Source: Rhizophagus irregularis
Lineage: Eukaryota > Glomeromycota > Glomeromycetes > Glomerales > Glomeraceae
Assembly (NCBI RefSeq): GCF_026210795.1
Contig: NC_089434.1
Span: 1,116,001-1,180,000 of the forward strand
Direction of reading: 5' to 3'
DNA length: 64,000 nucleotides
The position numbers and the translations under genes were made by a program. A model generated the notes under the pieces. That model did not search any database, was not told the origin of the DNA, and saw only the letters and a list, made by a program, of their open reading frames with translations. Of the stretch, positions 11,693-42,454 are shown piece by piece; within the stretch, counting starts at the first letter, position 1, and the number at the start of each line of letters is the position of its first letter.

Positions 11693-11926
11693 AGGACCCA
11701 GAAATATATATAAAAGGGTCAGGTTTGAGTTTGCGTATTTTGAACTAAAAAAATCATGGAAATCTTTCCTTTTTTAGATAATTTTTGATAATTCCAGTCA
11801 GAATTTTATTTCCTATTATAGTAACCGACTGACATTATCATAATTCCGGCCCTGAAAAAATGCGTACAGCTCATAGTAAAAAAAATTTTTCATCACCTGA
11901 CCCCTATATACATATTTCTGGGTCCT
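11693..11926. mobile_element. MITE of the AGGACC family, copy 2, nested in Tc1
   Basis: 234 bp, left end AGGACCCAGAAATATATATA, right end CATATTTCTGGGTCCT, with 8-bp duplications ATTACAAT at 11685-11692 and 11927-11934. It has landed about 15 codons into the transposase ORF; omitting the MITE and one duplication keeps the transposase frame open, so the insertion post-dates the Tc1 element. Interior contains a pair of AATTATC.AAAAAGGAAAG-like motifs shared with the other copies. Confidence 0.92.
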
Positions 11927-12331
11927 ATTACAATTCTGGAGGCAAGGAATACGTACTGCTGCCAAAATTCATTCTTTGACAAAGATACCACTTAGGACAA
12001 TATATAGGAACCTTAAAAAAATCAAAAAAACCGGAGATGTGAAACATAGAGGTGGCAATGGACGTATTAGTAAAATAACGCAAAAGGCTGCTCGTGAAAT
12101 TGGACAATATATTCGAAGAAAACCCACAATTACCACCAAGTTCATTGCTGCCAAATTGGAAGATGTTGGTGTTAACGTCTCTTGCTCAACAGTTTCAAGG
12201 TATTTGACCAGTCACGGATACAAAAATGCACTCCCCCTTGCTACACCAATGCTTACTCCAGCCCATAAGCATAAACGTATTGAATGGGCACAAAATCACA
12301 TGAATGATGACTGGCAAAATACTTTATTTAG

Positions 12332-12598
12332 TCATCATCTTCTACCTATTTATCTTCGTCCTTGTCAGACAATGCTATTCATTTGAATCAAAATATGTAT
12401 CAAACAATTAAAGTAAGTATTTTTTTATTATCTGTCATTGAATTTTCCCAAATATTTACATTTATTTATTATTTATAGAAAGAAGTCTTTATCTGGGTAG
12501 ATTCTGAATTAAAGAATATATATGAGATCGATAGTGAACGAACGTGGCTTGAGCAAAAAGAAAATATAATTACAAAATTACTTCCACCGCTTTATAAG
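12332..12598 (+). other. inserted gene fragment with an intron, inside the Tc1 transposase
   Basis: Between ACTTTATTTAG and TTAGTGATGAGAC the transposase is interrupted by 267 nt flanked by a 4-nt repeat TTAG (12328-12331, 12599-12602). The extra DNA reads as an exon from 12332 (Ser-rich, SSSSTYLSSSLSDNAIHLNQ) to about 12412, a donor GTAAGTATT, a 66-nt AT-rich intron ending TTATTTATAG, and a second exon (KEVFIWVDSELKNIYEIDSE.. to ..LLPPLYK at 12598) in the matching frame. It looks like a piece of a host gene carried inside the transposon. I do not recognise the source gene. Confidence 0.65.
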
Positions 12599-24634: not shown

Positions 24635-25322
24635 TAGAGTTTGGAACCGGATGCACCATCCAGTTTTTAAACCAGTTCCACCCGTTTTTTTACGATTCGG
24701 TTCAATCCGGATTCATGCTGCAAAAACCGGTTTGCGTTTAAAGCGAGTGCAACCGGGTGCTCAACCCGGTGTGATATTGAAACTTTATAGTGCCAGCCCG
24801 AATTACGAAATTATAAATCATGTGATACCGGATAAATAGTTTAGCCACTGGGATTTTTATCAGTTATAGAAAATTATGCTCTGGAATTGTATTACACAAG
24901 CTTTGTAATTCTGCCGAAATTATAAACTCAGCCAATTATATGCCGATCCCATTTAATTCTGGCCAAAATTACAGTGTACTGTACACTTGACAAATTCATG
25001 TGGGTTGTCGGCAAATAGAATTTTGTAATTTGTCACGTGTCCCGTACATTTTGAAATCAGTGTAAGCCAGATGCAAAAATGGAAACTCTAATAGATCATA
25101 GTAGAATTCCATAAGTTAACTGTTAATAATTGAAAACCAGGAACGTGACTTCAGATGCGGCTAACTATTACTTTATTATTTATTTATTATAATTAAACAA
25201 ATATAAAACCGGGTACAAAAATTGGTTTCAACCGGGTTTGTAAAAACCAATTTGAAAAGGGTCGAACCGGTTGCACCTGTTTTAAATCCGGTTTCCAAAA
25301 ATACAACCGGTTCCAAACTCTA
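24635..25322. mobile_element. hAT-type MITE, 688 bp, same family as 2347-2827
   Basis: Left end TAGAGTTTGGAACCGGATGC, right end AACCGGTTCCAAACTCTA, with exact 8-bp duplications GTGCAACA (24627-24634 and 25323-25330). The interior shares words with the 2347-2827 copy (GTTTGCGTTTAAA, TTGAAACTTTATAGTGC, GTGATA..GGATAAATAGTTTAGCCACTGGG and complements) and is again rich in AACCGG motifs near both ends. The 70-codon plus ORF over its left half looks incidental. Confidence 0.9.
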
Positions 25323-36647: not shown

Positions 36648-37693
36648 GTTGTAATTTAAGGGAGCATGTCATGAGAGTTAAACGAGTTGGGTAAATTATA
36701 TATGATTCTGATGTCGCACAACTCATATAATTCATTCTTGATTAATATGCTACTCCTAATTATCTAAGCATATTAAACATTTAACTAAAATTATAGTTTT
36801 ATCAAAATTTACTTACGCTACTTATTTTTTGCTCTGTATGTATGTCTGTAAATATTTTAAAGTTTTATTTATTGTGTTAAACTGGGTAAATTATGGAACA
36901 ATGATTCCAATTTATACAATTCATTCTGACTAATTGTGTGTAACATGTTTCAATAATTAAGTACAGATTTAATTAAGCTATGGAACGAAAATCATTGTTG
37001 TTTAAGAATTATGTATAGTGAAACAATTGAAACATGTATAAATTTTGTAAGTTTAATAATTTTTGTGTAGCATAATTTTGTTTTGTTTTGTTGCACTATG
37101 TTATAGTGCTAAATTTATTAATTTATAATTATTTAAAACTGAAATTAAACCCCAAAAGTTAAAATATTTTTGCTTGAAGGTCAAAAGTCAAATTAAAAGT
37201 TCAAAATGGCCGAATTAACATTATATCATATAATGATTAAACAATATAAACTTTGAAATTTAATAGCTTCGTCATTATCGATCCGATTGCAATTATTTTA
37301 CAACCATTCGAATTAATGAAACTTGATTTTTCGGTTCTCATAACATAACAATTTTGAAAATGATCCGGCAACCCGGTTTTTAATTTTTTATTTTAACTTT
37401 TAAAAAGATCTCACCCGGTATAATAGTAATAATAAATTTTTTTACAAAAAACTGACCCGGCCGGGATACGAGAACCGAAAAACTAAGTTTGTATGGCCTA
37501 ATATTGTGATTTCAAACTATATTTTTTTTCGAAATTTGAATTCAGAAAAGAATATAATACAATAAATAAAATAAAAATGTATTGAATTTACATCTAAAAT
37601 ACAAATAATATAAAATACAATATATTTATAAAGTCTGTAAAACTTAAATAAGTAATATAAAGTTTATAATATACACAAGTATAATGTCCTTCT
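36648..37693. other. intergenic DNA upstream of the F-box gene
   Basis: No ORF. Around 37320-37480 an imperfect inverted arrangement is visible (TTTTCGGTTCTCATAACATA .. CGAGAACCGAAAAACTAAG), suggesting a small decayed element. The first ~200 bp presumably hold the F-box promoter. Confidence 0.4.
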
Positions 37694-38246
37694 TAGAGGT
37701 TGGAACCGACCAAAAAAACCTTAATCGATTAATAATCGATTAATATTAAAATATTAAAAATTTTTTTTTTTTTGACCGCAGATTGCACCAAATTGTTTTT
37801 GATCATACATTTAGTTATAGGAAAGTCTTATTTATTATTATTATCTTTTTTTTATTTTTATTTTTAAGATATAGACTCGACTGGGGTCGAACGCTAAATA
37901 GGAATAAACATGGTCTAAAAGATCAATAAATTCTGAGCTAGTGTTTTACCCAACCTCTCAGGAGAAGCCTGAAGGGGTCGTCTTGCCCATTATTCTATAG
38001 AACAATCAAGCATAACCTGGAGTCTAGAACGGACTATCCAAAACCAGTAAAAAAAGAACGAGAAAATAAAAAAAGGAAAAACTAAAAATACAAGGGAAAG
38101 GAACAAAACGTGACAAAAGGTGAGTTCAAGTATATCACTGGAATCCGTATTTTTCTTTTGTCATAAAGACACCACACGTAAATACTGTCAGGTGTGGAAT
38201 GGTGCATGATTTGAAGGTCCGGTGTTGTTGTACTCAATCAAGTGAG

Positions 38247-38453
38247 TTAATCATGTGACGGCGTAGGCGGGAATTCCACAACGGAAGGTCCTTCACTAGC
38301 CGAGAGGTAAGTAATGTCGCTCATGGTAGTGTGCGAATCATTGTCCGGGGGAGGTGTACGCCGGAAATAGAGGTTCGAATCATTAAAGATTTGTTGATCC
38401 TTCTTTTTGATGTGGTAAGAAACGTTAGGAGGTGATTGTATAGAATTCATCAT
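38247..38453 (-). CDS. small ORF overlapping the end of the element's main ORF
   Basis: Sixty-eight residues (MMNSIQSPPNVSYHIKKKDQ.., ending ..EFPPTPSHD). Its ATG overlaps the stop of the upstream ORF (the shared bases read ATGATGA at 38450-38456 on the minus strand). Polar and Pro/Ser-rich. It could be translated by reinitiation, could be the displaced C-terminus of the 488-codon protein after a frameshift, or could be non-coding. No family recognised. Confidence 0.35.
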   Translation of the reverse strand: MMNSIQSPPNVSYHIKKKDQQIFNDSNLYFRRTPPPDNDSHTTMSDITYLSASEGPSVVEFPPTPSHD

Positions 38454-39916
38454 GACGAATTTGGCATGATGTTGGCGGTATAGCTCAACCGCTTTGGAAT
38501 AACCGTAATTGTATTGGGGATCGAACTGACATTATAGCGTCGTCTAATATTATAATCAAACAGGTTAATATTATACGTAACGTAATAATATGTACGCTGG
38601 TCTCCAACAAAACCAGCAGGTAGGGGAGGTAATTGTTTCTTGAGACGGTTGCGTTTTTTAGTGCGACGGATCCAATTCTTGATCCTTTGACATGCGCGTA
38701 TTTGATTATAGTGCCTAAGACCGTTAGGCGAATTTTTGAAAGCGTCAGAAAGTTGTATAGGTGTACGTCCTATGTAATGGTCCGGGAGATGATGGATGGT
38801 TTTAAAAACCATTTGTCCAGGGGAGTTAGGAAGTAAGCGAGGTAGGATAGTCTGGTTGGAGTGGTTACGTCTGAGTGTAGACGTAATTAATCTATTCCAT
38901 CGTGCCTGCTGTTGAGGTGAACGAACCGCATCGAAACGTAACGTGCGGTATTGTTTGTAATATGGTCGAACCGTTTTATTGTCATTGCTAGGTAAATTTA
39001 AATCAACCGAGCGAAATCGTTTAAATTGAACGACATAGCTAATGCCGAGGCGATTAGAATGAATTTCTTTGTGGTTCTTTTTATTCTTGTGATGTCGGTT
39101 TACCGTACGGTTAAACTGTTCAGCGTAGAATCTAGGCTCTACTGGATGACGAGTAGTAGTGTGCGAGACCTGTCGAATCAGTTTGAGATGACCTCCGCAA
39201 CGCCAACGATTATTTGATTGTACGAAGGCGGGGGGGTGGATACATAGTGAGCCCTCATTCTCACCAGGTGCAAAATGTAGCGTACCGCAAGGGAAATAAA
39301 AACCCAAGTAGATCACGTGGGGGCCGCAGCTGAACCGGATAAATGTTTTAGTTTTTCTATCATTATTATCAGTTGATTCTAATCGATATCGTAGTGCTAG
39401 GAGTTTTTCTTTTAATAATTGGCGTAAACGGTTAAAGTATTTGTCCACAGCATCCTTGTGAAATTGTCTATTTAAAGAAAAGACAAATGTGAGATAAATT
39501 CCTAAAATGTAATTTAAATTTGGTTTGTTAGATGTAGATCGAAATGTATGACGATGATTTTTTGATAATTCAATATCATTGGTGTAAATCAGGTATTTGT
39601 CAATTTCCGTAAGAGGAAGATCGGCTTTTTCAGACAGCCGAAGAAGGTAATATCGTCCTTTTCTAGTATTGTACAAAGTTCCACTGCCACGAGTGTCACA
39701 TGACAGGTAGGGCGAGAGCTTGGAAATTCTCATGGAAATGTTAAAAAATTTTGTAATAGGTTTGTAAAGACGTAAAATAGCCTGTGAAACAGGCGGAGGG
39801 GTAGTAGAGTCGGGTGAAGAGTCCATAGGCCGAGCTTGAGAAGGCTTTGTGAGTTTATGATTTATTATTATTATCATTAAAAAATTAATACAAATTCTTC
39901 CAAGTTCGGAGAACAC
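38450..39916 (-). CDS. unrecognised Arg/His/Asn-rich protein in a hAT-ended element
   Basis: Open frame of 488 codons; the likelier start is the internal ATG at 39826 (MDSSPDSTTPPPVSQAIL), giving 458 residues, because the first 30 codons are AT-rich like non-coding DNA. Visible features: a Cys/His cluster (FSCGPHVIYLGFYFPCGTLH..SLCIHPP..RWRCGGHLK), a strongly basic middle (TTRHPVEPRFYAEQFNRTVN, HHKNKKNHKE), repeated Arg-rich patches (RIKNWIRRTKKRNRLKK) and a Tyr/Asn-rich end (RTYYYVTYNINLFDYN). This fits a nucleic-acid-binding protein, but that is inference. No DDE, BED, hATC, RT or integrase motif seen. Its base composition differs sharply from the host genes here, consistent with acquisition by or co-evolution with the mobile element. 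Confidence 0.65.
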   Translation of the reverse strand: MFSELGRICINFLMIIIINHKLTKPSQARPMDSSPDSTTPPPVSQAILRLYKPITKFFNISMRISKLSPYLSCDTRGSGTLYNTRKGRYYLLRLSEKADLPLTEIDKYLIYTNDIELSKNHRHTFRSTSNKPNLNYILGIYLTFVFSLNRQFHKDAVDKYFNRLRQLLKEKLLALRYRLESTDNNDRKTKTFIRFSCGPHVIYLGFYFPCGTLHFAPGENEGSLCIHPPAFVQSNNRWRCGGHLKLIRQVSHTTTRHPVEPRFYAEQFNRTVNRHHKNKKNHKEIHSNRLGISYVVQFKRFRSVDLNLPSNDNKTVRPYYKQYRTLRFDAVRSPQQQARWNRLITSTLRRNHSNQTILPRLLPNSPGQMVFKTIHHLPDHYIGRTPIQLSDAFKNSPNGLRHYNQIRACQRIKNWIRRTKKRNRLKKQLPPLPAGFVGDQRTYYYVTYNINLFDYNIRRRYNVSSIPNTITVIPKRLSYTANIMPNSS

Positions 39917-40320
39917 GTGACCAAAAATTCACAGCTCTGGGCCGCATTAGATAATTTGACCAGAATTATGGGTTGATAATTTTAATCGATTAACCGATTT
40001 TTGAGATACCTTAATCGATTAACCGTCTTAGTCGATTAATTAATCGATTAACCTTAATCGATTCCAAACTCTAGTCCTTCTTAGCATAGTTGATATGGTA
40101 AATCTAATAATATATTGATTTTATTTAAGTAAATTCATCATGAATTTTATATAGATATTAGCACATGATATTAGAAATTATCAATAAATATTTAAAATTA
40201 TGAGTGGCAATTTAATAATTATTTAAAAAACAGAAAATAAATAACTGTAGTAGCGGTGATTTTATTTAAATGTTTAAATAAATATTTTTAATTTATTGTT
40301 CTTTATTTCCTATTTTTTAG

Positions 40321-42454
40321 TTATTCTAATCTATTTTGAGCTTCTTGAACTCCTTGTTCAGCTGATTTTTTGTACCAATAAATAGCTTTATCTATATTTT
40401 TAATAATTCCTTCTTCATATTCATACATGGTAGCAAGATTATATTGAGCTAAACTGTTTCCTAAATCTGCTGCCTTTTGATATAATTCAAATGCTTTTTA
40501 CTTATCAATATTAGTACCAAATCCATTTTTATAACAATATCCTAAATTATTTATTCCAAAAGGATTTCCTAAATCTGCTACCTTCTGATATAATTTAAAT
40601 GCTTTTTGATAATCAATATCAATTCCAATTCCATTTTCATAACAATATCCTAAATGATTTATTCCATATGAATTTCCTAAATCTGCTGCTTTTTGAAATG
40701 ATTCAAATGCTTTTTTATTATCAATATCAGTTTCAATTCCATTTAGTTAACAATATCCTAAACTGCACATTCCAGATGAATTTCCTAAGTCTGTTGCCTT
40801 TTGATATAATTTAATAGTTAATGATATGATTAATTTTGATATTGATAATATTGAAGTAGGGAAACAAAAATTTCCAACTTATCTTAATAGCCGTAATCTA
40901 ACTTTACAAGAGTTTAATAATTTATTATTAAATAACCAAAATAATTCAAATTCTCTTGCCTTACTTGGAGATTTTAATTTTCTTGGACTTGGAATTGGTA
41001 TTAATAAGTCAAAAGCATTTGTATCAAAGTTATTCTCAAATTGGTTACTTGATGACATCAAAGATTCTATTTCTTTTGTATTCATCATATTGAAGTTTTG
41101 AATGACTTGAGACATGTAATGAATCAATATTTTCAGAAATTTTACCATCCAAAATTGGCTGCTGATTATTAGATGATTGTGTAATATTATTATCATTAAA
41201 TAAGTGAAAGTCTTTAATAATTATATTTTCTTTTTTTATAATTTCTTTTAATCTATCAAACACTTTGTTGATAAATGGACGATCATCAGGTTCAATATTC
41301 CAACAATCTATAAAAAATATATATTAATTGAAATTTGTATTTTATTTTTAAATCATAGGTTTAAATAGTATTTACCAGTATAAATTTTTATATATTCTTC
41401 AGGTGTATCAGGAATGGATATCTCTCTAAGACCTTGCAAAATTTCTATAGCCAAACCGAGATCATTCAATTCATTACAAAAAGGTGGTCGTCCACTAGAA
41501 ATTTCCCATAAGAGTATGCCAATACTGTAAACATCACTCTGGCTCGTTTAATGAGTATACTTCCGGTTGGTTATTGTTAATATTTCTTCTTCTATTGAAT
41601 ATTTTTGGATCAACATAAGTAATCATTCCAAATACTTTTGATTGAAGATTGGATGATTCCTCAATCCTTTTTGAAAGTCCAAAATCGGCTAACTTAACAG
41701 TATTCTGATGAACTAATATATTTTTGGAGTGCTATTATTAAGTATATAAGATTAAACTAAGATAAAATGAGCATTAAATAAAAAATAATTATAATAAATC
41801 ATAAATTGATTAATTACCAAATCACGGTGCACGATTTCTTCACCATGTAAGCATGATACTGCATAAACCAGTTTGAAATGCAAAGACTAAATTTATCGTT
41901 CCAAGTAAGATTTTCAAAATTTTCTTTCAAATAATCTCGCAGTGCACCACCGTTAGCATATTCTATTACCAACGAATATTCTTTGATTTGATTTCTTTTA
42001 AAAGAAAACAGACAAGTTAATTAATGATTATATGTTAAAAAATGATTATTGAAAACTTATCATATCCCTACTGAAAGTTGTCACGCCATAAAAACGGATA
42101 GCATTATCATAAAAATCAACTTCACGATGATGTTGAATCTAAATAAAAAAATAATTTTTTATTAGAAATGTAAATATTATAATAATTAAAAATTTCTTTT
42201 TTTTATATTATAATTACCTCACGAACAATCGCTTTAATTGTAGCATCATTTAAATTATAAAAAGATTTAAGTGCACAACATTTATGAGAATCCTTCCAAT
42301 CTGCACGATAAACTTTTCCGAAGCCTCCAGAGCCAATTTCTTGAAGATTATAAAATTGGCCAAATTCATAAAATTTAATAAGTTTTTTAGAAATTGCTTC
42401 TTCTATCCAATCACACTCATTTGAATTATTAATAAGTTCAGTGTTATTAGACAT
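40321..42454 (-). pseudogene. TKL protein kinase-Sel1 repeat fusion, degenerate
   Basis: Start ATG at 42454 (MSNNTELINNSNECDWIEEA). Exon 1 to 42218 contains the intact glycine loop IGSGGFGKVYRADW and ALKSFYNL, ending REV|. Then HHREVDFYDNAIRFYGV, a frameshifted C-lobe start (correct frame ..SCLHGEEIVHRDL|), [20 protein letters not shown], a frameshift at about 41540, [33 protein letters not shown]|, CWNIEPDDRPFINKVFDRLK, a frameshift near 41050, then four or more Sel1 repeats (AFKLYQKVADLGNPFGINNLGYCYKNG-type, ~36 residues each) with TAA stops at 40498-40500 and near 40748. Kinase-Sel1 fusions are common in these fungi. Key residues persist, but at least three frameshifts and two stops make it a pseudogene. 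Confidence 0.9.

Follow-up and report, generated by a model that had tools for sequence, protein, structure and literature searches.

Within the window analysed here, a stretch of 64,000 nucleotides of the Rhizophagus irregularis genome (C6:1116001-1180000), two mobile elements lie one inside the other between positions 37694 and 40073. The outer one ends in hAT-type tips, TAGAGGTTGGAA at 37694 and TAGAGTTTGGAA on the minus strand at 40062-40073, and is flanked by a perfect 8-bp target duplication, GTCCTTCT, with its left copy at 37686..37693 and its right copy at 40074..40081. Both features had been reported in a preliminary description of this DNA and hold, and the tip pattern has 11 matches with at most one mismatch against 1.5 expected. 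That description had, however, taken the whole interval for one element, whereas we found a hAT-type MITE whose left part (37694..37845, plus strand, including the site of the second insertion) and right part (39860..40073, plus strand) abut each other in other copies, and whose middle, 37846..39859, is a separate insertion. The insert is a 5'-truncated copy, 2,014 bp long and on the minus strand, of a protein-coding retroposon with a LINE tail. It has its own 16-bp target duplication, ATTTATTATTATTATC, at 37830..37845 and 39860..39875, the second copy of which forms the first 16 bp of the right part of the MITE, and an A-rich end on the 3' side of the gene. Its GC content is 40%, compared with 26% in the rest of the window, in agreement with the earlier remark that the ORF is much less AT-rich than any host gene here.

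The nesting was read from a search of the genome (146.7 Mb, 32 contigs) with the whole 2,380-bp stretch, in which the best 40 of 326 candidates were scored and three kinds of match appeared: the window itself, 32 places where the MITE parts abut, and seven places where the middle alone matched (within query positions 145-2166). At these uninterrupted places, of which 32 is a minimum because the best 40 candidates were scored, the left part ends at query 152-155 and the right part begins at 2162-2167, the two overlapping slightly. About 30 bp extra stand near the left end in most of these copies, query positions 1-155 being matched in one piece in 4 of the 32; in eight copies the alignment runs straight across the junction. 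Among the MITE copies that were read, 21 of 22 could be delimited, at 348-389 bp and with hAT-type tips, and 17 of these 21 have a perfect 8-bp duplication. The shell therefore has both the 8-bp target duplication and the terminal inverted repeats, judged against the hAT consensus, of a hAT-type non-autonomous DNA transposon. Two more hAT-tipped elements, of 481 and 688 bp, lie at 2347-2827 and 24635-25322 of the window with the perfect 8-bp duplications ATAACGAC and GTGCAACA; they are related to each other (78-84%), stand in opposite orientation, and have little beyond the tips in common with the 350-bp MITE. By eye, positions 11901-12383 resemble the N-terminus of a Tc1/mariner transposase, and a tandem array of about 108-bp units next to the element, at 40300-40814, looks like a Sel1-like repeat gene.

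The 488-codon minus-strand frame noticed earlier is present at 38450-39916, and a small ORF of 68 codons at 38247-38453 overlaps it as had been described; the small ORF is, however, the C-terminal end of the same protein and not a separate gene. A one-base frameshift divides what is a single protein of 526 aa into these two frames; in comparison with a relative on C15 it is a one-base deletion near 38516. This full-length C15 relative has an unbroken frame for a 526-aa protein (MDSSPDST...) that is 97% identical to P0001 (GLOIN_2v1828557), an entry of R. irregularis DAOM 197198, and that has the sequence of the 68-codon ORF, bar one residue, at its C-terminus. The start of the intact relative (MDSS...) corresponds to the window ATG at 39824-39826. 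The main piece of the protein, which is related to DUF8211, thus runs from the native ATG to the post-frameshift stop (38450..39826, minus strand), with the C-terminal piece in the shifted frame at 38247..38453 (minus strand), and the first 30 codons of the long frame (39827..39916, minus strand) are natively non-coding DNA, namely the residual 5' UTR (to 39859) and MITE sequence. Owing to the nesting and the frameshift, the 488-codon gene is an artefact, and the window copy, with about 270 bp of its 5' end missing and its frame broken, is presumably dead. The ORF was rightly called unrecognised, as the window frame has no Pfam match over the cut-off and a best E of 0.28 in a PDB sequence search; searches with intact relatives against Pfam, PHROGs, and NCBIfam also gave nothing over the cut-off. 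We consider it highly probable that the region is a hAT-type MITE of about 350 bp split by a 5'-truncated, frameshifted, LINE-tailed element, likely inserted by a LINE in trans.

The preliminary description had offered another reading, in which the ORF travels as cargo between the hAT ends with the help of a hAT transposase acting in trans. As this reading requires, both tips and 8-bp duplication are genuinely of hAT type, but the 32 MITE relatives lack the ORF, the MITE-plus-ORF composite occurs once among the best 40 of 326 candidates scored, and the ORF segment has a 16-bp duplication and an A-rich end of its own. Moreover, hAT tips bracket the ORF at none of 29 other family loci, some of which overlap (1.5-kb flanks, one mismatch allowed); at L013, a one-mismatch tip pair stands beside the ORF and not around it, and relatives of the insert elsewhere stand without hAT ends. 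The cargo idea thus fails the check that had been proposed along with it, whether copies of the ORF always lie within such ends. We rejected it because, in the copies scored, the ORF has not been multiplied together with hAT ends, and we consider it extremely improbable. The ORF does lie in a mobile element, but its carrier is a LINE-tailed retroposon instead of a hAT element.

Full-length relatives of the retroposon are about 2.28 kb long, and five copies of the window's subfamily begin at a common point, about 270 bp farther upstream than the truncated window copy. Members of the family have the 5' end AAACTCTYTCCC, one ORF for a basic C-C-C-H protein, and an A-rich tail. Target duplications of 13-19 bp (median 14) flank 14 of the 16 full-length family copies, while those of L018 (8 bp) and L014 (6 bp) are short and that of L027 is of low complexity. 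Mispaired-flank controls (n = 240) had a mean of 5.6 bp, and six of them reached at least 11 bp, five of the six falling among L008, L018, and L021, three copies embedded in repeats of one type. The motif AAACTCTYTCCC N20-50 CAGTA has 97 exact matches at 96 distinct places, compared with 0 for the reversed pattern, and at least 36 of the 96 places have a family match on the same strand no more than 1.5 kb downstream, compared with 0 and 0 in the upstream and other-strand controls. Conversely, the exact motif stands in front of 51 of the 159 family places listed, which represent the best 65 of 445 and the best 88 of 433 candidates, the latter from a six-frame search. Two motif places were opened: L068, which is among the listed family matches, has a broken family ORF, and L069, which is not among the matches listed, has by eye a degraded one. 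Target duplications of variable length, the A-rich 3' end, and 5'-truncated copies with a common 3' end are those expected of non-LTR retroposons, the products of target-primed reverse transcription (TPRT). No reverse transcriptase (RT) was found in the family: it has a single long ORF, for which neither the window ORF nor any of three intact relatives gave a Pfam family over its cut-off, and on this evidence it lacks the RT and endonuclease of an autonomous LINE. The 5' start of the family, a C followed by a pyrimidine run (CTCTTTCCCC), is one that we take to resemble the 5'-TOP motif, and such a start could tie transcription or translation of the element to growth signals. On C16 (about 3333600-3336800), a family copy is apparently split into L005 and L020 by tandem repeats whose period is about 100 bp.

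The 3' end of the insert connects it to a LINE, as its last 198 bp (37846..38043, minus strand) are 97.0% identical to the 3' end of a LINE whose open frame has 2,119 codons. Of the six LINEs whose 3' ends we inspected (L074, L076, L078, L079, L080, and L081), five (L074 and L078-L081) were compared with the insert and one of these, L081, matched; the identity sets in about 15 bp ahead of the stop codon that closes the open frame. That frame contains an RT match and an endonuclease domain, the LINE also has a 768-aa ORF1 with a CCHC-like motif (by eye), and this copy is flanked by its own duplication, ATACTAAAATTAG. At 41 scored places the tail follows an RT match in 8 cases, ends a family element in 17, and does neither in 16, and the strand-flipped controls gave 0 for RT and 1 for a family element. 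The spacing between RT and tail in the 8 cases is 3.09-3.35 kb and exactly 3,097 bp in five of them. This count used 28 of the 159 family places, picked by eye for nearness, together with the 96 motif sites, and the RT places were the best 150 of 793 candidates. Within the family, the LINE tail was found on the window's subfamily and on a single other group, to which some of the 17 elements belong and whose members are about 2.5-2.7 kb long and have family matches (e.g., C24:1178700, C16:2596254, and C7:469367). The tail folds no better than shuffled sequences (z -0.99). A 198-bp LINE tail on an element without its own RT would mean that the element was likely inserted by that LINE's machinery in trans, and on this sequence evidence the retroposon is likely to be trans-mobilised by its partner LINE through the borrowed tail.

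Tails may also have moved between the elements themselves. The 165-bp tail of L008 is 99% identical on L083 and L084, whose DNA otherwise aligns with that of L008 only in the first 300 bp or so at the 5' end (84%), and this suggests tail exchange among elements. A LINE donor of the L008-group tail was not found, with an RT at 0 of 40 places among the matches listed (1 in the flipped control). A further LINE family, seen at L066 and L073-L076 (C22, C8, and C5), begins, like the retroposons, with AAAAACTCTCTCCC and has an ORF2 frame of some 1,820 codons but no A-rich tail; it ends at GGAAAAGGATAAAAC, and since the copies read have this word on either side, the family looks site-specific.

Two protein searches found 39 and 45 relatives; those with a species name are from R. 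irregularis and R. clarus, and the others are unnamed metagenome entries. When a distant relative was used as the query, 77 proteins were found, of which 76 are precomputed as PF26638 (DUF8211) and the named ones are all from Rhizophagus. Alignment of the two protein sets with hhalign gave 99.8% and an E of 9e-29 over 297 columns, and a conserved C-C-C-H stretch occurs in both; judged by these profiles, the family of the window protein is homologous to the domain of unknown function DUF8211. The DUF8211 proteins of Rhizophagus thus resemble the window protein in profile, in the C-C-C-H region, and in the 5' element end, but close relatives of the window protein are not precomputed as DUF8211, except for P0031, a joined model, and long C-terminal helices are predicted in the DUF8211 model. 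A Pfam search of P0031, which is precomputed as PF26638, returned no family, and the PF26638 model seems to be absent from the Pfam copy searched. A literature search found no publication under the name DUF8211. All seven proteins computed have a pI of 9.4-10.2, and binding of RNA would be a guess from this charge and the C-C-C-H motif. The two structures modelled with AlphaFold are of low overall confidence (mean pLDDT 58.6 and 62.7), too low for a function to be assigned, with a confident core at residues of about 280-395 (pLDDT about 90) in that of P0049, a DUF8211 protein with a 100% match to an entry of R. irregularis DAOM 197198; structure searches with both models gave no convincing match. 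P0018 (784 aa, R. irregularis) is a gene model that fuses a LINE RT fragment with a family protein, for which the insertion of a retroposon into a LINE is the best reading.

A protein of this kind next to a LINE's 3' end could also come from a half-LINE similar to HAL1, the ORF being the ORF1 of a LINE that has lost its ORF2. The 3' end shared with a LINE, a basic protein in the ORF1 position, and the long C-terminal helices of the DUF8211 model are all compatible with such an origin. Nevertheless, P0001 did not match the 768-aa, CCHC-like ORF1 of the partner LINE (tblastn best E 0.85; one LINE copy), and the 5' part of that LINE, of which 5.8 kb was read with C8:3424001-3427999 left out, has no DNA similarity to the retroposon. 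We rejected this candidate because the ORF is not homologous to the ORF1 of the partner LINE in the one copy read, and consider it quite improbable.

The protein itself has been under constraint. With the Nei-Gojobori method, and with only those copies included that have a stop-free frame of at least 400 codons, dN/dS was 0.15-0.25 (about 0.2) in six between-lineage pairs with measurable dS, values that are approximate because dS between lineages is 1.2-2.9 and near saturation (four L063 pairs are saturated). For pairs inside the window's lineage it was 0.20-0.38, for those inside the L008 group 0.37-0.56, and for L012/L015 0.23. The purifying selection across copies that was to be looked for is therefore present, with dN/dS below 1 in all measured groups (0.15-0.56). 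The protein was thus kept during the spread of the element, and it may have been kept because it helps its own element or because it also serves the host; the data fit both. Together with the family-wide 5' end and the single ORF, we count this constraint among the established parts of our explanation.

If service to the host were the whole reason, the copies might be processed host genes, in which DUF8211-like cellular genes are selected by the host, their mRNAs are retroposed by LINEs, and the mobile look is a by-product. Many copies are indeed annotated as Rhizophagus genes, the protein is constrained, and A-rich tails and duplications would look alike in both cases. However, the 5' end is common to lineages with less than 50% protein identity, the 3' end is the LINE's own, and L008 and L083/L084 carry the same tail on DNA that otherwise aligns only near the 5' end. 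In addition, four of the seven R. clarus proteins named in the search results were placed in a tree of 19 and form one clade (100/100), as expected of separate, lineage-specific amplification. We therefore regard processed host genes as unlikely, and a LINE-tail parasite that codes for a protein remains the most economical account.

For this LINE-tail parasite, the nesting, both target duplications, the A-rich tail, and the tail common to RT-encoding LINEs are likewise counted as established, and the following steps can be proposed. A polymerase II transcript would be made, starting at ACTCTYTCCC; the LINE RT would recognise the borrowed tail and prime reverse transcription at the nicked target, and such TPRT would account both for duplications of 13-19 bp and for the 5' truncation. 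With less confidence, we speculate that the basic C-C-C-H protein may bind its own RNA or the LINE RNP and so raise the chance of its own RNA being copied, which would explain why the protein is kept. The full proposal, that these are protein-coding, RT-less parasites of LINEs which swap tails (some of them LINE-derived) and whose basic C-C-C-H protein captures the LINE machinery, so that DUF8211 would be a selfish RT-recruitment factor and not a host gene family, is a tentative one to which we give somewhat less than even chances. If true, a LINE-tail parasite keeping a conserved protein would be an unusual case, and it would become testable whether a non-autonomous element encodes its own helper for stealing reverse transcriptase.

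A large orphan protein family is thereby placed in a class of mobile elements with an identified LINE partner. Unclassified repeats have been put at 32% of the R. irregularis genome, or 24% without high-copy and orphan genes (PMC8647823), and at about 30% before curation (PMC11075540). LINE families (PMC8647823, PMC11075540) and SINE families (PMC11075540) have been named in this genome beside a large unclassified fraction, and young lineage-specific genes and small RNAs have been described (PMC10234402); the element is not mentioned in the available parts of these three reports (PMC8647823, PMC11075540, PMC10234402).

Among known systems, SINEs have target duplications, as the element described here does, and their bodies are short, non-coding, and transcribed from a Pol III promoter. 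Many SINEs also share the 3' end of their partner LINE, and several LINEs need their own 3' UTR (PMC3747384). SINEs with a LINE-derived tail, which form stringent SINE/LINE pairs, resemble our element in being RT-less, in the partner's 3' end, and in the presumed trans-mobilisation. The element has the LINE-derived 3' end of a SINE, but in place of a short non-coding body it has about 2.3 kb (2.28 kb) with a 526-aa ORF under purifying selection. HAL1, the half-L1 of mammals, which encodes the ORF1p of its LINE (PMC5753468), is likewise non-autonomous and LINE-dependent and has one protein only, whereas the ORF here is unrelated to the one ORF1 of its partner LINE that was read. In powdery mildew, the EKA family, with AVRk1 and AVRa10, is similar in that a very large set of fungal paralogues proved to be carried by a retrotransposon; it derives from part of a LINE ORF1 (PMC4641428), whereas the element in Rhizophagus shares with its LINE the tail.
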